Shown: positions 256 to 56,963 of the stretch, piece by piece
How positions within the stretch are numbered: the first letter of the stretch is position 1
How the letters are laid out: each line of letters begins with the position of its first letter
Source: Maridesulfovibrio sp.
Lineage (GTDB): Bacteria; Desulfobacterota; Desulfovibrionia; Desulfovibrionales; Desulfovibrionaceae
Length of the DNA: 64,000 nt
Reading direction: 5' to 3'
Assembly: GCF_963667685.1 (NCBI RefSeq)
Contig: NZ_OY763931.1
Coordinates: 620,001-684,000, forward strand
Translations under genes and position numbers: made by a program
Notes under the pieces: generated by a model
Databases searched by the model: none
What the model was told of the DNA's origin: nothing
Seen by the model: only the letters and a program-made list of their open reading frames with translations

Positions 256-2709
256 ATGTCGTCCACAGTTTTCGAAGGTGGCAATACATCTGCTGAACAG
301 AATATTCTGCCAATGATGTCCCTGCGGGAAGTCGTAATGTTTCCCCGTTCTATTGTGCCGCTTTTTGTCGGTAGGGAATCTTCAATCAAAGCAATTGAAG
401 AGGCAATTTCCGATTATGACAAGAAGATTTTTCTGGTAACTCAGGAATTTCCTGAAAAAGAAAAGCCTGAACCTGATGACCTTTTCCGGGTCGGTACTGT
501 CAGTAAAATTCTGCAGATGCTCAGGTTGCCTGACGGTACTATCAAGGTTCTTTTCGAGGGCATGTACCGCGCCAGCTGGAACCCCGAATCCGAGGATGTT
601 GTTTTCGGGGAGAATTTTCCTCTGGTTAATGTTGAAAGAGTTAACGATCTTCCTGCCGAAGAACATACCACCGAGGCGCTGGTCCGCTCTGTTCACGAAG
701 CCCTTGAAAAGTTCGGCAAGGTGAATAAAAAGATCGCGTCTGAGACAGTTCTTGCCATCTCCACCATTCGTGAAGCCGGTAAGTTGGCTGATTCTATTAT
801 GCCTCATCTCAAGGTGGAGTTCCTCAAAAAACAGACTATTCTTGAGATGGTTGATCCCATTCAGAGGCTTGAAGCTGTTTATGAACTGCTGCTTGGTGAA
901 ATTGAAATTGTGTCCATTGAAAAGCGGGTTAAAAACCGTGTCAAAGGACAGATGGAAAAGAACCAGCGTGAGTATTATCTCAATGAGCAGCTCAAGGCTA
1001 TCAACAAGGAAATGGGCCGTGAGGATGATCCTCAGGCAGAAGCTCATGATCTTGAAGAACAGCTCAATGAAAAGAGCATGGAAGAAGAGTCCCGGGAGCG
1101 TGTGCGCAAGGAAATTAAAAAATTGCGCCAGATGGCTCCTTCCTCTGCCGAATATACCGTTGTCCGCAATTACGTGGACTGGATCATGGAGCTTCCATGG
1201 AATAAATATAAGAAATGTAAGCTAGATATAGCTGAAGCTCGCAGAATTCTGGATGAAGACCATTATGGCCTCGAAAAACCCAAGGAACGTATTCTTGAGT
1301 ACATGGCCGTACAGTCACTGGTGGAGACCATCAAAGGCCCCATCCTTTGTTTTGCCGGCCCTCCCGGTGTTGGTAAAACCTCTATCGCCCGTTCCATTGC
1401 CCGTGCCATGGGTCGTGAGTTTGTGCGTCTTTCACTGGGGGGTGTGCGCGATGAGGCAGAAATAAGAGGTCATCGTCGGACTTATGTCGGTGCGCTTCCG
1501 GGTAAGATTATTCAGTCCATGAGGCGCTGCGAATACAGCAACCCGGTTATCTGTCTTGATGAAGTTGATAAAATGAGTACCGATTTCAGGGGAGATCCGT
1601 CTGCGGCTCTTCTCGAGGTGCTTGACCCTGAGCAAAACAGTACTTTTAACGATCACTACCTTGATCTTGATTATGATCTGTCTAAGGTCTTTTTCATAAC
1701 CACAGCGAACGACCTGCATTCCATTCCGCTGCCCCTGCAGGATAGAATGGAGATCATCAAGCTGCCTGGTTATCTTGAAACCGAGAAAATGTATATTGCC
1801 AAGGATTTCCTACTGCCCAAGCAGGTTAAGGAACATGGCCTGAAAGATGAAAATCTTGCGGTTTCCGATAATGCCATGATCGATATAATCCGGACTTATA
1901 CCCGGGAAGCCGGCGTGCGTAACCTTGAGCGCGAGCTGGCTAAAGTTTGCAGAAAGACAGCAATGCAGATCGTTGAGTCCGGGGACAAGGAAAAGAGTGT
2001 TCATGTCACTACTGCGAATCTGAGCAAGATTCTTGGTGTACACAAGTTTCGTTACGGCGCTAGAGAGGAAAAATCTCTGATAGGCGTTTCCACAGGGCTT
2101 GCCTATACTCAGGTTGGCGGAGAAATGCTGATGGTTGAGGTTGTGCTCATGCCCGGTAGAGGAAAGGTCGTAATTACCGGTAAGCTGGGTGAGGTCATGC
2201 AGGAGTCTGCCCGGGCTGCTCTTTCATATATCCGTTCACGTTCTGATCTGTTCGGGTTGAAACCTGATTTTCATGAAAAGATTGATATTCATGTGCACGT
2301 GCCTGAGGGAGCAACACCCAAGGATGGACCTTCCGCAGGGATTACCCTCTGTACCGCCATGGCTTCAGCTTTTCTGAATGTTCCTGTTCGTCACGATCTG
2401 GCCATGACTGGAGAGATAACTCTGCGCGGCAGAGTGTTGCCCATCGGTGGACTGCGCGAAAAGCTTTTGGCTGCGCATCGCGGACTTTCTAAAACCGTGC
2501 TTATTCCTATTGATAACGAAAAGGATCTTAAAGAAGTGCCGGATGCAATTTTGAAAGATCTTGAGATCATCCCGGTTAAAAATATGGACGAAGTGCTTAG
2601 CTGCGCATTGGATAATCTTACCGCTGAGGAGTTGTTCCGTGGTCGAGATAGTGTCTCGCCATTGGCTTTGAACCTGATAAAGGAAGAGTATCAGGAGCAG
2701 CCCCACTAG
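256..2709 (+). CDS. lon: ATP-dependent protease Lon
   Basis: Cytoplasmic ATP-dependent serine protease that degrades misfolded and regulatory proteins. The 817-residue length is normal for the family. In order there is an N-terminal substrate-binding LON domain (about 17-220), a coiled linker, an AAA+ module with Walker A GPPGVGKT at 368-375 and Walker B CLDEVDK further on, then the protease domain. The catalytic pair is Ser693 (in KDGPSAG) and Lys736 (in [10 protein letters not shown]). Their 43-residue spacing matches that of the E. coli enzyme. The start is preceded by AGGAGG at 246-251. A strong terminator follows, so it looks monocistronic. Confidence 0.98.
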
Positions 2710-2735
2710 TTTTTAGCTCAAGATATAAGATGTTA

Positions 2736-2768
2736 AGGATGCCCTCATTGAGGGCATCCTTTTTTTTG
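2736..2768 (+). terminator. terminator of lon
   Basis: Perfect 12-base arms (AGGATGCCCTCA and its complement) around a tight loop, followed by eight T. Confidence 0.92.
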
Positions 2769-2849
2769 GGCGTAATGTCCGCGTGTTATTCCAACAGAGC
2801 GCTGATTGTGCTATGGATAAGCATGGCATGCAGCTATAGATTTAATCTT

Positions 2850-3974
2850 ATGCAAAGATCAAAATTCCGGGCAGAGTTGCGTTCTGTTGCTTTCCTGATT
2901 GTCTTATGTGTATTTTCAGAGTGCGCTTGTCCTGCGGCATGCGCCGATAGAGAGCTGAATCATCTTTTCCGTGAAGCTGTACATAGATTTAATATCCCCG
3001 GCGCGGTGATGATGGTCGAAGATCCGCAAGGGGGGGTAGAAGTATACAGGACAGGGGTGCGCAAAATTGGTAGCCGCAAGCCTATGAGCAGTAAGTTAAA
3101 ATTTCGTATCGGCAGTATAACCAAGACTTTTGTTTCATCTCTTGTGCTGATGCTGGTGGAGGAAGGGATTGTTTCTCTCGATACGGAAGTGCAAAATATC
3201 CTGCCTGATTTAATCCCTCAAGAAAGTCGAGTCACTGTCCGCAATCTATTGCATATGCGTAGCTGTTTAAACAATTTTACTGTTGAAGATGACTTCCTGC
3301 AATTGTTCCGGGAGCAGCCTTCTTTGCTGTGGACTCCCGAATGTTTATTGAATTTTGAAACAAAGGAGCAATGCAGTCCGGGTTTTGATTTCGAATACAA
3401 CAATGCCAACTATGTTCTACTCGGACTGATAATTGAAAAACTGACCGGTGACACTTTTGAAAATCAGGTTTCAAAACGCATACTTGAACCGTTGGGCTTA
3501 AATTCAACAACATTTCCTGTTAAAAGTTCTGATATGTCCAAGCCGTATGCTGCAGGTCATGACTATAACCCTGAGACAGGTCTGATAAGTGATTTGAGTC
3601 TTAGGATAAACCCGTCATGGGCATGGTGTTCTGGCAACGGCGTTTCAACTGCGCACGATTTGATGGTCTGGCTGAAGGCCTTTCTTGGCGGATACGGGAT
3701 AAGCGAAAAATTATTGTACGAGCAGTTGGATTTTCGGCCGGTTAATTATGACGGGATTGATTATGGTCTTGGAGTTATGAATAAATATACAGCTATCGGG
3801 CATAATGGTAATTTCGCCGGAATATATACATCGTTGGCGTTCAGGTATAAAGGATACTACTTTATTATTCTGACCAATGGGCAGGCTGTCGGTGGAGGAA
3901 AAACGGCAACTGCTGAATCTGTTTTTTGGTATATTATCAGTAAATCAAAATTATTTCGCCAAACTAAAAACTAA
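2850..3974 (+). CDS. secreted serine hydrolase, beta-lactamase/DD-peptidase fold
   Basis: Member of the class C beta-lactamase-like family (PF00144), which includes DD-carboxypeptidases, esterases and beta-lactamases; the substrate cannot be told from sequence. The three family motifs are visible: SxxK as SITK in RIGSITKTF, a YNN motif in FEYNNANY, and HNG in IGHNGNFAG in place of the KTG box. The start at 2850 gives a 374-residue protein with a hydrophobic signal peptide ending near ACPAACA. The reading frame is open further upstream but would begin inside the lon terminator. An ATG at 2823 is the alternative, and neither has a convincing ribosome-binding site. Its last 11 bases overlap the convergent small gene on the minus strand. 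Confidence 0.8.
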   Translation: MQRSKFRAELRSVAFLIVLCVFSECACPAACADRELNHLFREAVHRFNIPGAVMMVEDPQGGVEVYRTGVRKIGSRKPMSSKLKFRIGSITKTFVSSLVLMLVEEGIVSLDTEVQNILPDLIPQESRVTVRNLLHMRSCLNNFTVEDDFLQLFREQPSLLWTPECLLNFETKEQCSPGFDFEYNNANYVLLGLIIEKLTGDTFENQVSKRILEPLGLNSTTFPVKSSDMSKPYAAGHDYNPETGLISDLSLRINPSWAWCSGNGVSTAHDLMVWLKAFLGGYGISEKLLYEQLDFRPVNYDGIDYGLGVMNKYTAIGHNGNFAGIYTSLAFRYKGYYFIILTNGQAVGGGKTATAESVFWYIISKSKLFRQTKN

Positions 3975-4242
3975 AGCTGAATCCAAGACCGATTCCCATC
4001 GTGCTGGGGCTCGCGTCCGGTCCATCGTGTCCGGGGTCAGTGTGCTCATCCAGTCCGAAGAGCAGTTCAGTTCTCATCGTGTCTGTTATGTTCAGTCCAT
4101 TGACAATTTCACTGATTGAAAAGTCGCTCAATTTGCTGGTCTGAACCGGTTTAGGGTCTTCAGCGTAACCGAAATCGGCAGCGTAGCAGTTCGTAAACCC
4201 AAAGAAGATTAGTGTTGTCGCCATTAATATTGATTTCCACAT
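3964..4242 (-). CDS. small exported protein of unknown function
   Basis: Not recognised. A 92-residue product with a clear signal peptide (MWKSILMATTLIFFGFTNCYAA), an acidic middle containing DEHTDPGHDGPD, and a C-terminus GIGLGFSFSF. That end alternates hydrophobic residues and finishes in Phe, like the last strand of an outer-membrane barrel, but the protein is far too short for a full barrel. The start was chosen because GGAAGGTGG lies just upstream and the signal peptide follows. The open frame extends to 4419 without other support. It converges on, and overlaps by 11 bases, the serine hydrolase gene. Confidence 0.55.
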   Translation of the reverse strand: MWKSILMATTLIFFGFTNCYAADFGYAEDPKPVQTSKLSDFSISEIVNGLNITDTMRTELLFGLDEHTDPGHDGPDASPSTMGIGLGFSFSF

Positions 4243-4621
4243 TTTCCACCTTCCTGTTATTTCCTTTTCTTGTCTCCTTTCGTTGTATGAAATTATACAA
4301 TTTCCGGGCCATCTGATTATCTTGTCCATAATTAAAGGTGGATGGTGGGTATGGTTGTTTAGAACACAGCTGCTGGCTAGGAAAAATAATCGATTATTGT
4401 TTCTGGGCAGGTTTATCAAGTCGGAAAAAATGACTGTTTTAAATTAGACCCTTGTATAGACGAGTTGACGGGTTTAGCCGTTCGTAAACGAATTTTTTGT
4501 GTTTTGTTTCGGTTGATATCGTTCAAAAACGAACCGGTATTGATTTTATTTTGAGTAAAATCGAATTTAGTTGTTTTTTTCAAAATTACATAATTCCCTA
4601 AATTGGGACGGAATTTCAAAT

Positions 4622-4654
4622 TGTTACAATTGTGTTACGATTTATTCTTATTAT
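4622..4654 (+). promoter_or_regulatory. Pho-box-like promoter upstream of alkaline phosphatase
   Basis: Two direct repeats, TGTTACA (4622-4628) and TGTTACG (4633-4639), recur with an 11-base period as in PhoB-binding Pho boxes. A TATTAT -10 element follows at 4649-4654, the distance at which PhoB substitutes for a -35 element. A second possible promoter has TTGACA at 4673-4678 but poor spacing to its -10. Phosphate control is an inference from this layout and the downstream gene. Confidence 0.5.
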
Positions 4655-4961
4655 TTTGGGCCAAAACCCCCATTGACAATGGTTTGATTCGTTATAAAGT
4701 GGCTTAGGTTTTTTGCAAATCGCAAAAATGTCGTGTTGTTGCTGTGGGTTTTGGAAGGTTCCACTTGTTGGGACGGAGGATCACATTTGATGCGGGCTGA
4801 TCCACCTGAGCTTCGCTATTACCTATATGCAATGTTGCATTGTGAACTTTCGTGAATGTTCGGATTAAGGAATGCTGTTCATTTCATGAGAGTTGGCATT
4901 ACAGCTTGCATGCCTTGTTTTTAGGCATGAGGCATAACTTAAAACGGTAAGGAATGTGAAA
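4655..4961 (+). other. long untranslated leader before alkaline phosphatase
   Basis: About 300 bases with no supported gene. A hairpin with arms ATGCCT/AGGCAT spans about 4910-4927. Otherwise no known riboswitch or terminator was recognised. Confidence 0.35.
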
Positions 4962-6515
4962 ATGTTAAGAAGGATCGTACGTCCATTGGTATTGGCCGTC
5001 TGTCTGGCAATGATTGCGGCTTCCGCTTTCGCTGCTGCACCAAAGTATGTGTTTTACTTTATCGGTGATGGTCTTGGACCCACCCAGCGTATGGCTGCCG
5101 AGCTGTACAATAAGATGGAAAAGAATGACGCAGATGCCAAGCTGGTCATGAACTCTTTTCCGCAGGCTGCTCTGGTTACAACCTATTCCGACAACACCCT
5201 GATTACTGACTCCGCAGCAGGCGGGACAGCTCTGGCATGTGGCTTCAAAACCACTAACGGATATCTCGGCAAGCTTCCTAACGGTAAAGACATCAAGTCT
5301 ATTGCAGAAGCTGCAAAAGAGAACGGGTTTGCAGTAGGTATCGTAACTACCACCCGCCTGACCCACGCTACTCCGGCTGCTTTTTCCGCTCATAACCCTG
5401 ACCGTAACGCTTCTAATGAAATCGCAGTAGACCAGGCTGATTCCGGTTTTGATTTCTTCGCAGGTGGCGGTTACCGTCATTTTGTTGCAAAAAACAACAA
5501 ACTGGGTCTGAAGTCCAAGCGCAAAGATGACAAAGACGTTGTGAAAATGTTTGCAGATCAGGGTTACAAGACTTTCGTTGGTGATTCCACCCGCGACGCT
5601 TTCCGTGCATACAAGCCTAAGAAAGGGGATAAAGTCTTTGCAGCACTGACTTACAGTCACCTTCCTTATGAAGTTGAACGCCGTAACAGCAAACTTAAGG
5701 AAAACAAGCTTCCTGCACTGTATGAATTGACAGAAAAAGCTGTTGAAACTCTTTCCGCACAGGACAAGCCTTTCTTCCTTATGGTTGAAGGTGGCCGTAT
5801 TGACCATGCCGCACATGCTCATGATGCAAAATCCACCATTCTGGATACTATTGCTCTGGATGAAGCGGTTGCAGTTGCATACGAATTCTACAAAAAACAC
5901 CCTGAAGAAACTCTGATTGTAACAGCTGCCGACCACGAAACCGGTGGTGTTGCACTCGGTATCTCCATGGATTCAAAAGGTTACTTCCTCAACCTTAAAG
6001 AACTTGAAAAAGTTCAGGTATCTGCAGAAGACAATCTTAACGAATTCTACAACAAGCTGGCTGCAAAAGAGTCTAATATTGCAAAGCGCCATGCCGCTTT
6101 TATTGAATACGTTGAAAAGAACTGGGGACTGACTGATCGTACTCCGTCCGAAGAAAAAGTTCTTACCGACGCTATGGCTGTAGAGGATAAAAACCAGAAT
6201 CTGCCCGAAGCCAAGAAAGTCAGTTATGGATATTCCTACACTCCGACCATGGTTGCAGTTACTGACCTGATCTCTCAGAGAGCACGTATGTTCTGGACCT
6301 CCTTTGTTCATACCGGTACTTTCATTCCTGCTACCTCCATAGGTGTAGGTGCAGAAAGATTTGTCGGTTTTATCGACAACACCGATATTCCCAACCGCAT
6401 GGCTGAAGTTATGGAAGTGAATCTTTCTGACATCAAGCATGCTGATTCCAAGGCTCTGCTGGGTAAAACCTACGGTCCTCAGGAAAAATACTCCAAGATT
6501 CCTTACAACAAATAA
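4962..6515 (+). CDS. phoA: alkaline phosphatase, periplasmic
   Basis: Hydrolyses phosphomonoesters in the periplasm to release phosphate (PF00245). After a signal peptide ending AASAFA the mature enzyme shows the metal ligand Asp in FIGDGLG, the phosphorylated Ser84 in TDSAAGGTALACG, the EGGRIDHAAHAHD metal site and the TAADHETGG metal site. Length 517. The ATG at 4962 sits 8 bases after AAGGA. A GTG two codons earlier is too close to that site to be the start. The Pho-box-like promoter upstream suggests induction by phosphate starvation. It ends at a GC-rich terminator. Confidence 0.95.
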   Translation: MLRRIVRPLVLAVCLAMIAASAFAAAPKYVFYFIGDGLGPTQRMAAELYNKMEKNDADAKLVMNSFPQAALVTTYSDNTLITDSAAGGTALACGFKTTNGYLGKLPNGKDIKSIAEAAKENGFAVGIVTTTRLTHATPAAFSAHNPDRNASNEIAVDQADSGFDFFAGGGYRHFVAKNNKLGLKSKRKDDKDVVKMFADQGYKTFVGDSTRDAFRAYKPKKGDKVFAALTYSHLPYEVERRNSKLKENKLPALYELTEKAVETLSAQDKPFFLMVEGGRIDHAAHAHDAKSTILDTIALDEAVAVAYEFYKKHPEETLIVTAADHETGGVALGISMDSKGYFLNLKELEKVQVSAEDNLNEFYNKLAAKESNIAKRHAAFIEYVEKNWGLTDRTPSEEKVLTDAMAVEDKNQNLPEAKKVSYGYSYTPTMVAVTDLISQRARMFWTSFVHTGTFIPATSIGVGAERFVGFIDNTDIPNRMAEVMEVNLSDIKHADSKALLGKTYGPQEKYSKIPYNK

Positions 6516-6550
6516 TTGTTAAGGATAACAGGTCTATTTGTTTATTATTT

Positions 6551-6579
6551 AAAGGTCCCCGTTAACGCGGGGGCCTTTT
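6551..6579 (+). terminator. terminator of phoA
   Basis: Stem AAAGG-TCCCCG with CGGGGG-CCTTT around TTAA, then a short T run. It lies only 15 bases before the next start codon. Confidence 0.8.
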
Positions 6580-6593
6580 AATATGAGGTCTCC

Positions 6594-7751
6594 ATGAAAA
6601 GGTTAGCATCACCTGTTTTTTTTATTTTGATGATCGTAGGGCTTGTCGGCATCTTACAGTATGAAAATTCCGGTCAGGATTTGAAGACCGAAATGTACGA
6701 AGTGCGTGCAACTGTCATTTCTGTGAATAATGAGTCTCTTGTTGAGATGGGCACTGCACGTATCGGCGGGCAGCATGTAACCGCAATATTACAGCAGGGC
6801 GAGGCCAAAGGCCAGACTGTGATCGGAGTCAATCAGCTGACCGGACAGCCGGAAATGGATGAGCTGTTTCACCCCGGCGATACAATTCTCATGGCAGTGC
6901 GTATGGCTGACGGCAGGGCAGTGGAAGCCAGAGCTGTGAACCAGTACCGTCAAGGTTGGGAACTGGGATTGTTCGGGCTGTTTATCATTATTTTGCTGAT
7001 TTATGCCCGCTCGATTGGGTTGAAAGCGCTGTTCAGTTTTATTACCAGTTTTTATATCATCTGGAAATTTTTCATTCCCGGACTGCTTGAAGGTGGCAAT
7101 CCAATTCTGCTGACTGTGGTTACCCTTACCTTGCTGACTGTTGTGATTATTACCTGCGTGGCCGGTTTTTCAAGAGTTACTGTTGTTGCCACGCTGGGAA
7201 CTCTCAGCGGTTTGCTGCTTGCCTTGGGCCTGACCCTGTTCTTTGGGGAAAAGCTCAAGTTGGCAGGCATGACTGCGCCTTTTGTCACGCTTTTAATTTT
7301 TTCCGGCCATTACACTCTTGATCTGCTGGATATTTTTTATGCGTCTGTAATTCTGGGTGCATCCGGTGCAGCCATGGATATTGCTATGGATGTTTCCGCT
7401 TCTATGAATGAAGTGCTCGACAAGAAGCCGGATATTACACGCAATGAATTGATAAAATCAGGCTTTAATGTCGGGCGCATGGTCACCGGAACCATGACCA
7501 CAACACTTCTGTTGGCTTATTCCGGTGGTTATTTGACGATGCTGATGGTTTTTGTAACCAAAGGCACCTCGTTTACACGCATGCTCAATTTCAAGCTGGT
7601 GGCTGCGGAGATTTTTCGTACTCTGGTTGGAAGTGTAGGGCTGGTAATGGTTGCTCCCATTACAGCCGTTCTTGCAGGATTCATTTTATGCGGAGTTAAT
7701 GCTTCGCGTCATTCCACCGATTCTTCCCCCGAGGACAGCGACACTCTCTGA
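6594..7751 (+). CDS. YibE/F family membrane protein
   Basis: Polytopic inner-membrane protein of the YibE/F family (PF07907), whose biochemical role is not established. It has an N-terminal membrane anchor, a periplasmic stretch of about 100 residues, then a C-terminal half with about seven hydrophobic helices. Family-typical segments include GHYTLDLLDIFYASVILGASGAAMDIAMDVSASM (first part about residues 238-252) and a conserved GFNVGRMVTGTM. The 385 residues suit a full-length member. It begins right after the phoA terminator, so it probably has its own weak promoter or relies on readthrough. A bidirectional terminator follows. Confidence 0.85.
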   Translation: MKRLASPVFFILMIVGLVGILQYENSGQDLKTEMYEVRATVISVNNESLVEMGTARIGGQHVTAILQQGEAKGQTVIGVNQLTGQPEMDELFHPGDTILMAVRMADGRAVEARAVNQYRQGWELGLFGLFIIILLIYARSIGLKALFSFITSFYIIWKFFIPGLLEGGNPILLTVVTLTLLTVVIITCVAGFSRVTVVATLGTLSGLLLALGLTLFFGEKLKLAGMTAPFVTLLIFSGHYTLDLLDIFYASVILGASGAAMDIAMDVSASMNEVLDKKPDITRNELIKSGFNVGRMVTGTMTTTLLLAYSGGYLTMLMVFVTKGTSFTRMLNFKLVAAEIFRTLVGSVGLVMVAPITAVLAGFILCGVNASRHSTDSSPEDSDTL

Positions 7752-36968: not shown

Positions 36969-37009
36969 GAAATCAAATTAACAAAAAGCGCGAAGCGCAT
37001 CAAAATTTC

Positions 37010-51615: not shown

Positions 51616-52920
51616 ATGAAACAGGAAGCAAACGGTTTGGCCCTAGCGCCACTGGCCCTATTTTTGGTGATATTTATTGGTACCGGATTTTTCCTGACCA
51701 TGAACGGAACCAGCATGGCTTTCTACCAGCTCTCCGCCACAGTCGCTATTCTGCCCGCAATTGCATGGGCTATCTGGATGGGAAAAGACAAGATCAACGA
51801 CAAAATTAATATTTTTCTGCGCGGAGCAGGCGAGCCGGGCATCATCACCATGTGCATGATTTATCTGCTGGCCGGGGGATTCGCATCCGTTGCCAAATCC
51901 ATCGGCGGTGTTGAGTCCACAGTAAACCTCGGGCTTTCCATCGTTCCTGCATCCATGGTTCTGCCCGGTCTGTTCGTCATAGCCGCTTTTATCGCGACCG
52001 CCATGGGTACTTCCATGGGAACCATTGCAGCAATCGCACCTATTGCTGTTGGTGTTGCCGGGAAGACTGATATTCCTTCCGCGCTGCTAATGGGAGCAGT
52101 TGTCGGTGGTGCAATGTTCGGTGATAACCTGTCTATGATTTCCGACACCACCATCGCCGCAACCCGCACACAGGGATGCCAGATGAGTGACAAGTTCAAG
52201 ATGAACTTTCTTATAGCACTTCCGGCTGCATTGGTAACAATCGTTATACTGTACCTTGCCGGGGAGGGCGGGCAGGTAGTCGCTGACGGCGGATACAGCC
52301 TGCTGAAGGTTCTGCCGTATATTACAATTCTGGTTATGGCTGTGCTTGGAGTTAACGTGTTTGTTGTTCTTGGAGTAGGTATCGTATTCACCGGAATGGT
52401 TGGATTCGTTTCTTTGGACAGCTTTAATCTGCTGACCTTTTCGCAGGACATATACAAAGGTTTTACCGGAATGCAGGAAATTCTGGTTCTGTCACTGCTG
52501 GTAGGTGGTCTTGGCGAGCTGATCAAATTCCACGGCGGTATCACTTACATTATTGATTTCATCGGCAAACTGACCAAAGGAACAAAGTCCACTAAAGCCG
52601 GGGAATTCAGCATCAGTGCTCTTTCCGTCCTGTCTGACCTTTGTACAGCGAACAATACCGTAGCCATTGTCCTCACCGGGGGCATGGCAAAGGAAATCGC
52701 CGAAAGCCACAATGTTGACCCGCGCCGCAGCGCAAGTCTGCTGGATATCTTTTCTTGCGTAGTGCAGGGGCTGATCCCTTATGGCGCACAAGTTCTGCTT
52801 GCAGGTTCCATCTCCGGTCTTTCCCCGCTCGAGATCATCGGCAACATGCACTACTGCTTTATCCTCGCAGTAGTGGCAGTGCTTAGCATTATGACCGGAT
52901 TTCCCAGAATCAGGAAATAG
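51616..52920 (+). CDS. NhaC-family Na+/H+ antiporter
   Basis: A 434-residue transporter with about 11 to 12 hydrophobic helices (PF03553 type). The signature segment GAVVGGAMFGDNLSMISDTT resembles NhaC, with substrate-site polar residues in ATAMGTSMGTIA. It exchanges sodium for protons or a metabolite. Its final 90 bases and terminator are duplicated at 55220-55377. No co-transcribed neighbour. Confidence 0.88.
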   Translation: MKQEANGLALAPLALFLVIFIGTGFFLTMNGTSMAFYQLSATVAILPAIAWAIWMGKDKINDKINIFLRGAGEPGIITMCMIYLLAGGFASVAKSIGGVESTVNLGLSIVPASMVLPGLFVIAAFIATAMGTSMGTIAAIAPIAVGVAGKTDIPSALLMGAVVGGAMFGDNLSMISDTTIAATRTQGCQMSDKFKMNFLIALPAALVTIVILYLAGEGGQVVADGGYSLLKVLPYITILVMAVLGVNVFVVLGVGIVFTGMVGFVSLDSFNLLTFSQDIYKGFTGMQEILVLSLLVGGLGELIKFHGGITYIIDFIGKLTKGTKSTKAGEFSISALSVLSDLCTANNTVAIVLTGGMAKEIAESHNVDPRRSASLLDIFSCVVQGLIPYGAQVLLAGSISGLSPLEIIGNMHYCFILAVVAVLSIMTGFPRIRK

Positions 52921-52990
52921 CTGATTCAGCTGATTTGGATATATAGATTTAAAAGTTCCCCGCAGCCTCTGGTTGCGGGGGATTTTTTTT
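52831..52990 (+). repeat. left-flank repeat, copy 1 (end of antiporter gene plus terminator)
   Basis: Last 30 codons of the antiporter gene and its terminator. A second copy lies 2389 bases downstream at 55220-55377. Confidence 0.9.
52956..52990 (+). terminator. terminator of the antiporter gene
   Basis: CCCCGCA (52958-52964) and TGCGGGG (52974-52980) with a run of eight T. Confidence 0.88.
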
Positions 52991-53105
52991 GTGGGTGAAG
53001 TTGTTATTCTGTATTGACGGATCGTATTTGTATCGTTAGCTTTTTATAAAGTTTTATTTGGGGAATTATTGGTTTGATTTTTATATATCGGGGAGGGGAA
53101 ATAAT

Positions 53106-55073
53106 ATGAATTCGACTCAGATATTTGATGCCGCTGTTGCTGCGCCGGGTGTTGCGTGGGGATGGTTTTTGGGATTGAATTTGGGTTTAAAACTTACATT
53201 TTTATGTGCAGTCTTTGGAGCGTATCCAGTTGTTATTCATATTTCTAATTTTTTTAAGGGTTCAAACAAACTAGATGATTCACAAAACTTAGCTGAAAAA
53301 CTATATGAAGACTTGAAACAAACCCAAGTTGCACTACAATTAAAAGATGAGGAAATAAAAGCTCTCAAAGAAGATATTGATGGTTTGCGTGAAGCACAAA
53401 AGAATCCTGAAGAAAAAAATTATGCAGCTAGGGCTGAAGCCGAACTTGCGAACGGTAAAATTGATTTGGCTAAGGCTTTTTCTGCTGAAGAAGCTGCGAA
53501 ACATCTAAAAGCTGGTGACGATAGTTATTTGAAAGAGGCGCCTCAGACACTACAATCAAAAGATGAGGAAATAAAAGCTCTCAAAGATGCTATTGATGGT
53601 TTGCGTGAAGCACAAAAGAATCCTGAAGAAAAAAATTATGCAGCTAGGGCTGAAGCCGAACTTGCGAACGGTAAAATTGATTTGGCTAAGGCTTTTTCTG
53701 CTGAAGAAGCTGCGAAACATCTAAAAGCTGGTGACGATAGTTATTTGAAAGAGGCGCCTCAGACACTACAATCAAAAGATGAGGAAATAAAAGCTCTCAA
53801 AGATGCTATTGATGGTTTGCGTGAAGCACAAAAGAATCCTAAAGAAAAAAATCATGCAGCTAGGGCTGAAGCAGAACTTGCGAACGGGAAAATTGATTTG
53901 GCTAAGGCTTTTTATGCTGAAGAAGCTGCGAAACACCTAAAAGCTGGTGACGATAGTTATTTGAAAGCAGCGGAAGCTTTGCGGCGTAAAGGTGCTTTGG
54001 ATTATATGAATAATCCAGCAGAGGCCATGAAAGCTTATCAAAAGTCAGTTGAACTTGATCCGAAGAGTGCTGACGGTTGGAATCAGCTGGGGTTATTGCA
54101 TCATTTGCTTGGTAATCTTAAATTAGCTGGAGATGCATTTAATGAGGTTCTGCAACTAAGCAACTCAGACAAGAGTATAAAAGCTGTTGCTTACGGCAAC
54201 CTCGGCGTGATCCGTAAGACTCAGGGTGACCTTGAAGGGGCGGAAGATTTTTATTTGAAAGCATTGGAAATCGATAAAGAGCTGGGTAGTAAAGAAGGCA
54301 TGGCTGCTGATTACGGCAACCTCGGCGTGATCCGTGATACTCAGGGTGACCTTGAAGGGGCGGAAGAGCTTTATTTGAAAGCTCTGGAAATAGATAAGGA
54401 GCTGGGGCGTAAAGAAGGCATGGCTATCCGTTACGGCAACCTCGGTCTAATCCGTGATACTCAGGGTGACCTTGAAGGGGCGGAAGAGCTTTATTTGAAA
54501 GCTCTGGAAATAGATAAGGAGCTGGGGCGTAAAGAAGGCATGGCTATCCGTTACGGCAACCTCGGTCTAATCCGTGCGGCTCAGGGTGACCTTGAAGGGG
54601 CGGAAGAGTTTTATAATAAGGCTCTTAAAATCGGCAAGGAATTAGGATCCAAAGAACGTATCGCAATTCAATACGGCAACCTCGGTATAATCCGTAAGAC
54701 GCAGGGTGACCTTGAAGGGGCGGAAGAGTTTTATTTGAAAGCTCTGGAAATAGATAAGGAGCTGGAGCGTAAAGAAGGCATGGCTATTCGTTACGGCAAC
54801 CTCGGTCTAATCCGTGCGACTCAGGGTGACCTTGAAGGGGCGGAAGAGTTTTACAATAAGGCTCTTAAAATCGGCAAGGAATTAGGATCCAAAGAACGTA
54901 TCGCAATTCAATACGGCAACCTCGGTGTTCTACGAGAGATTCGAAACGATTTGAAAGGGGCGGAAGATTACTGGCAACAATCCCTTGCCTTATACAAACA
55001 AATCGGCGCCGCACCTATGATCGAAAAAATTCAAGGCTGGCTGGACGAACTAGAAGCCAACAAAGACAATTAA
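53106..55073 (+). CDS. membrane-anchored TPR protein with internal tandem repeats
   Basis: A 655-residue protein, unassigned as a whole. One N-terminal transmembrane segment (about 18-50) is followed by helical coil, three 72-residue repeats (77-148, 149-220, 221-292), a TPR-like linker (about 290-360), and at least seven 40-residue tetratricopeptide repeats from Tyr363 (YGNLGVIRKTQGDLEGAEDF). TPR arrays are protein-binding scaffolds. The first 72-residue units are nearly identical in DNA, which indicates recent duplication. The ATG has GGAGGGG upstream. The sequence is AT-richer than its neighbours by eye. It lies between the two flanking repeats and seems an accessory gene. Confidence 0.85.
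   Translation: MNSTQIFDAAVAAPGVAWGWFLGLNLGLKLTFLCAVFGAYPVVIHISNFFKGSNKLDDSQNLAEKLYEDLKQTQVALQLKDEEIKALKEDIDGLREAQKNPEEKNYAARAEAELANGKIDLAKAFSAEEAAKHLKAGDDSYLKEAPQTLQSKDEEIKALKDAIDGLREAQKNPEEKNYAARAEAELANGKIDLAKAFSAEEAAKHLKAGDDSYLKEAPQTLQSKDEEIKALKDAIDGLREAQKNPKEKNHAARAEAELANGKIDLAKAFYAEEAAKHLKAGDDSYLKAAEALRRKGALDYMNNPAEAMKAYQKSVELDPKSADGWNQLGLLHHLLGNLKLAGDAFNEVLQLSNSDKSIKAVAYGNLGVIRKTQGDLEGAEDFYLKALEIDKELGSKEGMAADYGNLGVIRDTQGDLEGAEELYLKALEIDKELGRKEGMAIRYGNLGLIRDTQGDLEGAEELYLKALEIDKELGRKEGMAIRYGNLGLIRAAQGDLEGAEEFYNKALKIGKELGSKERIAIQYGNLGIIRKTQGDLEGAEEFYLKALEIDKELERKEGMAIRYGNLGLIRATQGDLEGAEEFYNKALKIGKELGSKERIAIQYGNLGVLREIRNDLKGAEDYWQQSLALYKQIGAAPMIEKIQGWLDELEANKDN
53334..53981 (+). repeat. three 216-bp tandem repeats inside the TPR gene
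   Basis: Units start at 53334, 53550 and 53766. The first two are almost identical; the third has a few changes (for example tat to cat, and tct to tat). Each encodes KDEEIKALKxxIDGLREAQ and the rest of a 72-residue coiled-coil-like unit. Confidence 0.93.
54192..55031 (+). repeat. seven 120-bp TPR repeats
   Basis: Units start at 54192 and recur every 120 bases through 54912. They share TACGGCAACCTCGG at the head, and several pairs are identical over most of their length, so the array is likely length-variable. Confidence 0.93.
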
Positions 55074-55109
55074 CCCTTTCCCAACAACTCCAACCCATAC
55101 ACCACAAAT

Positions 55110-55155
55110 AAGCGTGAAGCCCTATCAAAAGATAGAGTTTCACGCTTTTAAATTT
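55110..55155 (+). repeat. right-flank hairpin, copy 1 (terminator of the TPR gene)
   Basis: AAGCGTGAA and TTCACGCTT with inner CTATC-AAAA-GATAG, then TTTT. The same 46-base sequence with four substitutions lies at 55996-56041. Confidence 0.8.
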
Positions 55156-55219
55156 CCTATTCAAACAAATAATGCCGAAGGCGTCATCCAAATGAAATCT
55201 TCACAATCCCTACATAATT

Positions 55220-55309
55220 GATATCATCGGCAACATGCACTACTGCTTCATCCTCGCAGTAGTGGCAGTGCTCAGCATCATGACCGGATTTCCCAGAATC
55301 AGGAAATAG
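55220..55309 (+). pseudogene. remnant: last 30 codons of an antiporter gene
   Basis: Matches 52831-52920 with only a few differences. Within the shared coding part the changes ttt to ttc, ctt to ctc and att to atc are synonymous and the TAG stop is kept. No upstream part of the gene is present, so it cannot make a transporter. Confidence 0.85.
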
Positions 55310-55344
55310 CTGATTCTGCTGATTCGGATATATAGATTTAAAAG

Positions 55345-55377
55345 TTCCCCGCAGCCTCTGGTTGCGGGGGATTTTTT
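55345..55377 (+). terminator. copied antiporter terminator
   Basis: Same stem as 52956-52990, with six instead of eight T. It completes the left-flank repeat, copy 2, and stands at the 3' end of the ATPase gene. Confidence 0.8.
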
Positions 55378-55433
55378 GTGTAAGGAAAGATGTTGCGCTA
55401 TGCAAATAAACATAGTGCCTTCGCAATATATTA

Positions 55434-55970
55434 TTACGCATTTATATGTTTTAAAATGAAATCAACGCGTTCAGCGACAGACTTTTTGGGAACTGTTACT
55501 AATGAATATTCAAATTTATTATAGGCGCTAACCATTTCTTGATAGGTAGCGACTGCTTCATCGAAATCCTGCTTTCGTTCGTCATCATTTTCGAAAATAG
55601 ACTTCCACGGTGGAAAGATAAATATCTTGGGATTATATTTCAATTTGTTGCAATATTCCAACAACTCGTCAGAAATAGGGAGACCTTCAAGTAAGGAATA
55701 GCCATAAGAGTCTATAATACTTCTATCGCAGAAAATTAACTTATCCGTACACTTCTGACAGTTATAATTATCTACTTCTTTCCGCACCATTTCGTCGCGA
55801 AAAGCAATTTTATCATCCCAGGGTAAAGTTTTTCCGCCGATTTTCAACTGTTCCTGGATCACCTGACGTCCAACTTCAGCCATGCTGCGATAGCCCATAC
55901 CTATTAAATGATTAATTGTTGTCGTTTTTCCTGACCCCGGGCCACCAGTAAATACTATTAAATTATTCAT
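55434..55970 (-). CDS. AAA_28-like ATPase/kinase
   Basis: A 178-residue P-loop NTPase: NNLIVFTGGPGSGKTTTINHL is Walker A (first part about 3-18), with a Cys pair in NYNCQKC and the CDRSIIDSYGY segment that follows Walker B-like LIFC. It resembles the predicted-ATPase family near NadR-type kinases; the substrate is unknown. The ATG at 55970 was chosen because the P-loop then starts at residue 10. The longer frame to 56015 runs into the right-flank repeat. AT-rich and without operon partners, so probably an accessory gene. Confidence 0.78.
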   Translation of the reverse strand: MNNLIVFTGGPGSGKTTTINHLIGMGYRSMAEVGRQVIQEQLKIGGKTLPWDDKIAFRDEMVRKEVDNYNCQKCTDKLIFCDRSIIDSYGYSLLEGLPISDELLEYCNKLKYNPKIFIFPPWKSIFENDDERKQDFDEAVATYQEMVSAYNKFEYSLVTVPKKSVAERVDFILKHINA

Positions 55971-55995
55971 CTGAATATCCCTCAGCAAAGCAAAA

Positions 55996-56041
55996 AAGCG
56001 TGAAGCCCATCCCAAAGATAGAGTTTCACGCTTTTAAATTT
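55996..56041 (+). repeat. right-flank hairpin, copy 2
   Basis: Matches 55110-55155 at 42 of 46 positions. Here it lies upstream of the ATPase start rather than after a gene, so it no longer terminates a cognate gene. Confidence 0.8.
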
Positions 56042-56084
56042 ATAGCTATTTTAAGCGGTTGCCACGAATCAGCAGGAAAGTGGA

Positions 56085-56190
56085 TTTGGACGTTTCCTGA
56101 AAGGCAACGACCCACAAAGGGGGAGCCACAGGAAGTGGCGAATCAAAAGGGCTTTAGCCCTCGGAGAGCTGCCGGAGGCACTCCCTACAA
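56085..56190. repeat. dispersed hairpin element, partial member 5
   Basis: GAATCAAAAGGGCTTTAGCCCT and the closing GCTGCCGGAGGCA resemble the ends of the other members, but the middle is different. It abuts the 3' end of cheZ. Confidence 0.45.
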
Positions 56191-56925
56191 CCCAAGCGAA
56201 GCCAACAAATCATCAACATCACCCTGATCGGCTTTTTCGGTGGGCCCTTTGAGTTCGCTCATTTTGGTTTGAGTTTCCTGATCGAGCTGCTCAAGGGACT
56301 TTTCCGGGGCCTGTTCGCGGGCTTTGATTTTAAGCCCGGTGGACATATAGAGATCAAGGACGATTTTTTCTACGCTCTTGATGGTATCAATGATGATTTT
56401 GATGCGCTGCCCGGTCAGGTCCTGAAAGGAGAGGGTGGTCATGATGGTCATGATGTCCTGACCAAGGGTTTCATTGATGTTGGCCAGCTCAACGCGCTGT
56501 TCTTTCTTTACACCGCCGGATTCAAAAGCCTTAATGATTTTTGCAAGGGCAGTCTGGGTTTCCTGAGTTTTTTCAAGAATATCCATGATGTCCTGCGTGG
56601 CTTTTTCCGTGGTGCGCATGATGGCATCAAGCTGATCGGAAGCTTCATTAAAAAGCTGGTCCGGGTCGGAATCAACGCAAACTACTGGCTCTGTTGAACC
56701 TGCAGGGCCTTTTTTCGCCTTGGCAACTTCCTGATAGATATCGCGAAGACCGTTTTGCAGGTCGATGTTGATTCTGCGGTAGAATTCACCTTCAAGCAGG
56801 GTCTGAGACATGCTCCTGGAAATTTCTCTCTGCACTGCATTGGAAATGCTTTCCTTGAGGCTTCTACTCAGATCCTCGGAGACCTTCTCCATCATCTCCC
56901 GCACTATCTGATCATCATGAATCAC
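56185..56925 (-). CDS. cheZ: chemotaxis protein phosphatase CheZ
   Basis: Speeds dephosphorylation of CheY-P in the flagellar chemotaxis system. Family motif LSFQDLTGQR is present, with Asp169 and Gln173 equivalent to the catalytic D143/Q147 of E. coli. The C-terminal peptide DVDDLLASLGL resembles the CheY-binding end of E. coli CheZ. 246 residues, mostly helical. It is the last gene of the cheZ-ileS block. Confidence 0.94.
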   Translation of the reverse strand: MIHDDQIVREMMEKVSEDLSRSLKESISNAVQREISRSMSQTLLEGEFYRRINIDLQNGLRDIYQEVAKAKKGPAGSTEPVVCVDSDPDQLFNEASDQLDAIMRTTEKATQDIMDILEKTQETQTALAKIIKAFESGGVKKEQRVELANINETLGQDIMTIMTTLSFQDLTGQRIKIIIDTIKSVEKIVLDLYMSTGLKIKAREQAPEKSLEQLDQETQTKMSELKGPTEKADQGDVDDLLASLGL

Positions 56926-56963
56926 TGCGCACTCCTTCGCGTTGATATATTTTGTTAGCAGCG

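Follow-up and report, generated by a model that had tools for sequence, protein, structure and literature searches.

An apparent joint of two nha-cheZ interval alleles in a Maridesulfovibrio genome: a probable scar left by an exchange of genes with a close relative

Homology-facilitated illegitimate recombination combines one homologous side with one non-homologous joint. It has been proposed, for example, for the T6SS immunity arrays of Vibrio cholerae, in which old content is kept beside new, and the same account gives its frequency as several orders of magnitude below that of ordinary homologous recombination (PMC5361080). The same process has been proposed for dimorphic loci of Escherichia coli (PMC2884548). 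Events with one homologous and one illegitimate end are on record for three naturally competent species, and also for conjugation in E. coli, where their efficiency is low (PMC2884548, PMC3240628). The minimal mobile elements of Neisseria are described as alternative genes between two conserved genes (PMC3898611). Transformation of Streptococcus pneumoniae yields merodiploids, which in the cited account are tandem duplications formed by unequal chromatid exchange (PMC3784515).

The locus considered here lies between the genes for an NhaC-type Na+/H+ antiporter (nha) and a CheZ-type protein in a Maridesulfovibrio sp. genome of 4.42 Mb in three contigs. The window, the whole stretch of DNA that was analysed, comprises 64,000 bases (positions 620001 to 684000 on contig 2). 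With moderate confidence the region is read as two alleles of the nha-cheZ interval joined head to tail, an arrangement that would have arisen by homology-facilitated illegitimate recombination with the allele of a close relative. The locus would then probably be a scar of gene exchange between close relatives, of an already known kind, and no new machinery is implied. The rarity reported for such events (PMC5361080) counts against this reading.

The resemblance to the described systems is partial. There is a non-homologous joint at one end, placed here at the four bases TACA; the homologous side and the transfer are presumed. As in the V. cholerae arrays (PMC5361080), old content is kept beside new at the same locus. 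Unlike the cases as those sources describe them, the borders here are cheZ and an antiporter gene, of which a remnant with an internal deletion is left at the illegitimate end. Like the Neisseria elements as described, the interval has different whole-gene contents between conserved genes (TPR, empty, or TPR plus ATPase in close relatives) and no recognised mobility gene; unlike them, both contents occur here in one genome, apparently joined illegitimately, and the comparison is at the level of species. The likeness in gene content does not extend to relative G015 and eight more distant genomes, in which the two genes are not neighbours, or to G014, which lacks the antiporter gene. The S. pneumoniae merodiploids are likewise tandem duplications whose two copies may carry alleles of different origin, but as described they span about 100 to 900 kb and depend on chromosome repeats (PMC3784515), whereas the present case involves about 3 kb and a four-base overlap. 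No similar published case was recognised by title in a literature search, and the case is not claimed as unpublished. The scar is real and readable and is well explained by known processes, the donor being putative. From its joint the steps by which close relatives would have exchanged genes can be proposed on the strength of a single genome, and its pattern (the tail of a border gene, then a foreign gene, then a second copy of the other border's terminator) provides a search signature with which such scars could be counted.

Layout of the nha-cheZ interval

The left border gene, nha (51616-52920, plus strand; PF03553), is intact, and its 3' end with the terminator behind it forms the first copy of a repeat (52831-52990). 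A TPR-repeat gene follows (53106-55073, plus strand; 655 amino acids counted from ATG). Behind it lie a first hairpin, a spacer and a second, altered copy of the nha end. An ATPase gene of the AAA_28 P-loop type (55434-55970; 178 amino acids), a second hairpin and a second spacer lead to the right border, the cheZ-type gene (56185-56925, minus strand; PF04344). The succession nha, TPR, hairpin, nha tail, ATPase, hairpin, cheZ agrees with the preliminary description, which does not mention that the ATPase gene, like cheZ, lies on the minus strand.

Open reading frames of at least 80 amino acids in the interval are the TPR gene, the ATPase gene and an 85-amino-acid frame antisense to the copied nha tail. 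No gene for a recombinase, an integrase, replication or a relaxase was recognised in the interval, where the TPR and ATPase products were searched for protein families. The spacer before cheZ, spacer Y (56042-56184), holds a dispersed repeat element (56064-56181), with 81% identity over 103 bases to C2:1296607-1296707 and shorter matches elsewhere in the genome; it is presumably REP-like.

Side-by-side alleles could also come from a strain mixture in which the reads of two strains were merged, and repeats are risky for assemblers. Such an artefact is nevertheless very improbable: the assembly has three contigs, a completeness of 100 and a contamination of 0.37, and the joint bears a sequence signature of its own (a short overlap, and a deletion between repeats).

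The copied antiporter end and the joint

Recurrence of the nha 3' end with its terminator, reported in the preliminary description, is confirmed: an alignment of 52831-52990 with 55220-55377, 160 columns long, contains 6 mismatches and one 2-base gap. A search of the genome with the nha end returned these two places and one 34-base match to part of the terminator on another contig; no further full copy of the left repeat was found in the genome. Between codon 407 and the stop the two copies differ at 3 of 87 bases, each time by a synonymous change of T to C; three C-ending codons and a short T run thereby mark the second copy. If changes were random, an all-synonymous outcome would have a p of 0.010-0.018, depending on the weight given to transitions. 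Adding a synonymous change in codon 312 lowers this to 0.002-0.005, with that base included only after it was seen. The copied end looks like an allele that diverged while working, an indication that is suggestive, not strong, with three changes behind it, and that agrees with the related functional allele proposed earlier.

Alignment of nha 3' ends places the intact resident copy nearest to the copied tail. Of 90 positions 4 differ between the two, and the joint accounts for one of these, whereas the copied tail differs from that of each of 15 relatives at 10 or more. Both tails also have a common stretch after the stop codon that was seen in none of 14 relatives, an alignment that omits G001 as too distant and G014 because it lacks the gene. 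Because of this stretch and of the contrast in differences, the source would be the same species or a near sister. The copied terminator lies downstream of the ATPase stop codon and folds on that strand too, less strongly (-16.0 kcal/mol).

The simple copy has its edge at its first three bases, GAG versus GAT. Leftward of this edge homology resumes as a separate block, 55211-55222 matching 52546-52557. The sequence from 55211 is TACATAATTGAT; with up to one mismatch, on both strands of the 64-kb window, its only other match is at 52546, in nha codons 311-314. There 11 of 12 bases are identical, the reading frame is the same and the difference is synonymous. In the copy as in nha, TACATAATTGAT directly precedes the ten-base word TCATCGGCAA, with one base between. 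The window contains this word at three places: the intact nha has it at 52559 and 52835, and the copy has it at 55224, preceded there by the base of the downstream repeat.

On the other side of the joint is spacer X (55156-55213), 58 bases that with the next base end in CCCTACA, the sequence at the genome's own cheZ stop codon (56183-56189). Its last three bases overlap the nha block, and TACA (55211-55214) is common to the cheZ end and nha codon 311. Compared with the cheZ spacer of G011 it gave a z of 4.0, with 0 of 300 shuffles as good; for the other six spacers z was 2.1 (the own spacer Y), 1.4 (G010), 0.5 (G008), 0.3 (G007), -0.2 (G013) and -1.0 (G015). Spacer X thus looks like the old cheZ-side spacer, chiefly by its likeness to G011. 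That it matches well only one of the seven spacers compared counts against the preferred reading.

In the simplest account, the cheZ end would have been joined to the nha interior at TACA, and 276 bases between the two ten-base repeats would have been lost, so that a remnant of codons 311-314 (55211-55222) now precedes the rest of the second allele's nha end and terminator (55223-55377). The junction would be illegitimate, because the joint lies outside both repeats, between the apparent cheZ end and the nha interior. Since the base before the repeat in the copy is of the downstream type, the deletion would need a switch one base outside the perfect repeat, or else an extra substitution in the second allele; this requirement also weighs against the preferred reading.

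The events can be put in a probable order. The left-hand allele would be ancestral, with nha, the TPR gene, a terminator, a spacer and cheZ. The right-hand allele, presumably from a strain or sister species, is 96% identical in the shared nha end and would have had the ATPase gene in place of the TPR gene between the same two terminators. Its DNA may have paired by homology on the cheZ side and been resolved there by a homologous crossover, while its other end would have joined the resident allele illegitimately through the four-base overlap. The deletion within the incoming nha could belong to the same step or a later one. As an outcome, both contents would have been kept, with nha and cheZ intact and the incoming nha tail and terminator downstream of the ATPase gene. 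Two alternative units joined at one site through shared flanks had been proposed earlier; alternative contents do stand side by side, but they are unequal, the TPR gene being old, and the joint lies outside the shared flanks. Genes of the comEC and DprA types are present in the genome and are compatible with DNA uptake, which they allow but do not show. Their presence says little, because the same families occur in 10 and 11, respectively, of 14 control genomes, E. coli included.

A local tandem duplication from nha codon 311 to the cheZ stop via TACA would produce exactly such a joint, a cheZ end running into an nha interior with a short overlap, and its repeats would need no donor. In the second copy the TPR gene would later have given way to the ATPase gene, and the nha remnant would have shrunk. 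That second event, a replacement between terminators, left no visible TPR remnant, and the 57 bases that follow the copied terminator show no apparent relation to the sequence behind the intact terminator. Spacers X and Y also differ, and all three coding changes in the tail are synonymous, at the p given above for random change. A duplication of this kind is possible, though doubtful; the joint of two alleles from close relatives is preferred.

Hairpins and interval contents in relatives

The second repeated element, a hairpin of 46 bases at 55110-55155 (hairpin 1) and 55996-56041 (hairpin 2), is identical at 42 positions, as had been reported, and at 46 of 51 (90%) when extended. On each of the four strands tested the fold is better than that of any of 200 shuffles. 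Predicted energies on the plus strand are -22.0 kcal/mol for hairpin 1 and -18.9 kcal/mol for hairpin 2, and on the minus strand -22.7 and -19.3 kcal/mol, so that the second fold is somewhat weaker. When the genome was searched with each hairpin region, the hairpin part matched only the other hairpin at E 0.01. A generic dispersed repeat was rejected on these searches, which found only the two places, and the resemblance to generic repeats such as 36986-36998, raised as a caveat in the preliminary description, amounts by eye to a short run in common. Flanks common genome-wide, which would have spoken against a particular site, were found for neither repeat in the own-genome searches.

The 3' end of cheZ was compared in nine relatives (G006, G007, G008, G010, G011, G013, G014, G015 and G016). 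In all but G006, G014 and G016, where the sequence looked different, a hairpin of the same form and altered sequence was seen there by eye. Because of this position beside cheZ, the hairpin is taken to be this group's cheZ-side terminator, foldable on both strands, and not a cassette mark. Hairpin 1 would originally have lain before cheZ, and hairpin 2 would be the same terminator of the second allele.

Some integrases leave a copied 3' gene end beside their insert. Site-specific mobile cassettes, of the integron or att type, might be imagined here, with the nha tail as a duplicated att site and the hairpin as a recombination site; the copied gene end does adjoin the insert, and the ATPase family occurs on plasmids. 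This is hardly credible, however: no integrase was recognised in the interval, relatives have the hairpin as the terminator on the cheZ side, and the joint coincides with neither of the repeats. A strict-consensus search of the interval gave a single RYYYAAC and a single GTTRRRY, which are separated by 1.8 kb and do not lie at a hairpin. An integron gene cassette was rejected, with no attC site (strict consensus) or integrase found in the interval, and so was a site-specific integrative element, with no recombinase in the insert or att repeats at its borders there.

The reading as two alleles from close relatives draws on the contents of the interval elsewhere in the genus. The set comprised 17 genomes, the present one included, with one genome per species. 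All 16 relatives have cheZ, and 15 of them have a closely related nha, the antiporter of G014 being a distant one. In G007, G011 and G013 the interval consists of one TPR gene, then the hairpin, then cheZ. In G010 two parts of a TPR gene stand at two contig ends, one beside nha and one beside cheZ, and very likely the gene lies between nha and cheZ here too. The G006 TPR gene adjoins cheZ, and five other genes lie between it and nha, 4.7 kb away. By eye the products of these five (L075, 2.4-6.8 kb in the nha-oriented piece) look like a DUF190 protein, CrcB, a CYTH-domain protein, ClpS and ClpA. In G008, a genome that is 84% complete, the interval is 152 bases with two terminators on one contig, and both the TPR and the ATPase gene are absent. 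About 58 kb separate nha from cheZ in G015. There the block that reaches from cheZ past the end of the window is found upstream, not downstream, of the nha block (L085, L127-L130, L070), which makes the interval a rearrangement breakpoint in that genome. In eight more distant relatives the two genes are far apart or on different contigs.

The ATPase gene is found in none of the 16 genus relatives. Among the other 296 genomes of the order, these 16 included, seven have a match (8 of 297 with the present genome). Because of this distribution among relatives the TPR gene, with same-place relatives in other species, is regarded as the old content of the interval and the ATPase gene as newly acquired. 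In the stretches fetched around 35 nha loci from genome_contigs, one shows cheZ (L034, the same contig as in G008) and none the ATPase or the TPR gene. A pattern search of viral_contigs, with close relatives only in reach, gave no confirmed case. The proposed donor state, nha-ATPase-cheZ without the TPR gene, was in no genome searched. As had been anticipated, the content differs among relatives (TPR, empty, or TPR plus other genes) and TPR-only intervals exist; a strain with the ATPase gene alone was not seen among the 16, and the TPR-ATPase arrangement is not unchanged in all relatives.

The nha-cheZ interval is the most changeable of 44 neighbouring gene pairs compared in three relatives (G007, G013 and G006). 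In four pairs the gap lengths vary by more than 300 bases. Those of nha-cheZ are 3264 bases in the present genome and 1709, 1809 and 6511 bases in the relatives, the only pair with more than one departure; the other three variable pairs owe their range to a single departing genome each. The comparison used open reading frames of at least 100 amino acids from 7846 to 65348, with overlaps filtered, match ends taken as gene ends and a threshold of 300 bases. Five genes at 256-7751 (found only in G007), the TPR and ATPase rows (being themselves the content under test) and rows from 65404 (found only in G015) were dropped, the rearranged G015 was left out, and the first four and last two genes were missing in G006. 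G008, with an empty interval, and G015, with a broken one, show further that the place is changeable. The five genes at 256-7751 match only G007 among the limited stretches of four relatives compared, and the other three may carry them elsewhere.

The name cassette hotspot, used in the preliminary description, captures this changeability, but there is no sign of dedicated machinery; it is too strong because the inserted genes of G006 look like household genes by eye and the case of G015 is a rearrangement. It is conceivable, though rather unlikely, that the interval serves the genus as a standing exchange site, where two strong terminators act as homology islands for whole-gene swaps (TPR, ATPase or nothing) among strains and failed swaps leave tandem two-allele scars, of which the present one would be an example, with both states preserved in a single genome.

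The ATPase and TPR genes

The ATPase product belongs to the AAA_28 family (PF13521), with a profile score of 141.6 bits against a curated cut-off of 27. The G+C content of its gene is 0.371, compared with 0.464 for the window. At third positions it is 0.363, and 0.351 in the TPR gene, 0.561 in nha and 0.567 in cheZ. Low G+C is no argument for a foreign origin of the ATPase gene alone, because the old TPR gene is equally low at third positions. The best plasmid matches of the ATPase are about 60% identical and are found on Vibrio plasmids. Its contexts outside the genus differ in the cases looked at (six of the seven order genomes and 2 of 114 plasmid records).

A circle carrying the nha tail, the ATPase gene, the hairpin and the cheZ end could have closed at TACA and been integrated by a single homologous crossover in the hairpin-cheZ stretch. 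This would yield the same final order, with the joint as the closing point. On the other hand, no replication, relaxase or recombinase gene was recognised in the unit, and a DNA search of a plasmid collection with 52700-56950 returned nothing beyond a single record that matches 112 bases of the ATPase gene. A phage search, with the ATPase protein only, gave two records of one phage that covered 61% of the query. An excursion through a circle is judged improbable, and the joining of two alleles of the interval remains the favoured origin.

The functions of the two products were also considered. A defence role, sought in PADLOC, was rejected: a Mad8 model matched the ATPase weakly over residues 1-29, and two general TPR models matched the TPR protein. 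In NCBIfam the ATPase matches only stretches of 31 and 24 residues of RecD models, and the TPR protein matches eleven models through its repeats, all far below cut-offs. A sequence search with the ATPase among solved structures gave no match at E 0.1. A single-sequence fold prediction for the ATPase had a mean pLDDT of 43.2 and was not used.

The TPR gene is repetitive. It contains three 216-base repeats with 91.7-98.6% mutual identity and a run of 120-base repeats (53332-53979 and 54071-54970), and by eye the TPR genes of relatives are also repetitive. Conservation of the TPR protein among these species is 55-64%, below that of the neighbours nha and cheZ of the same genomes.
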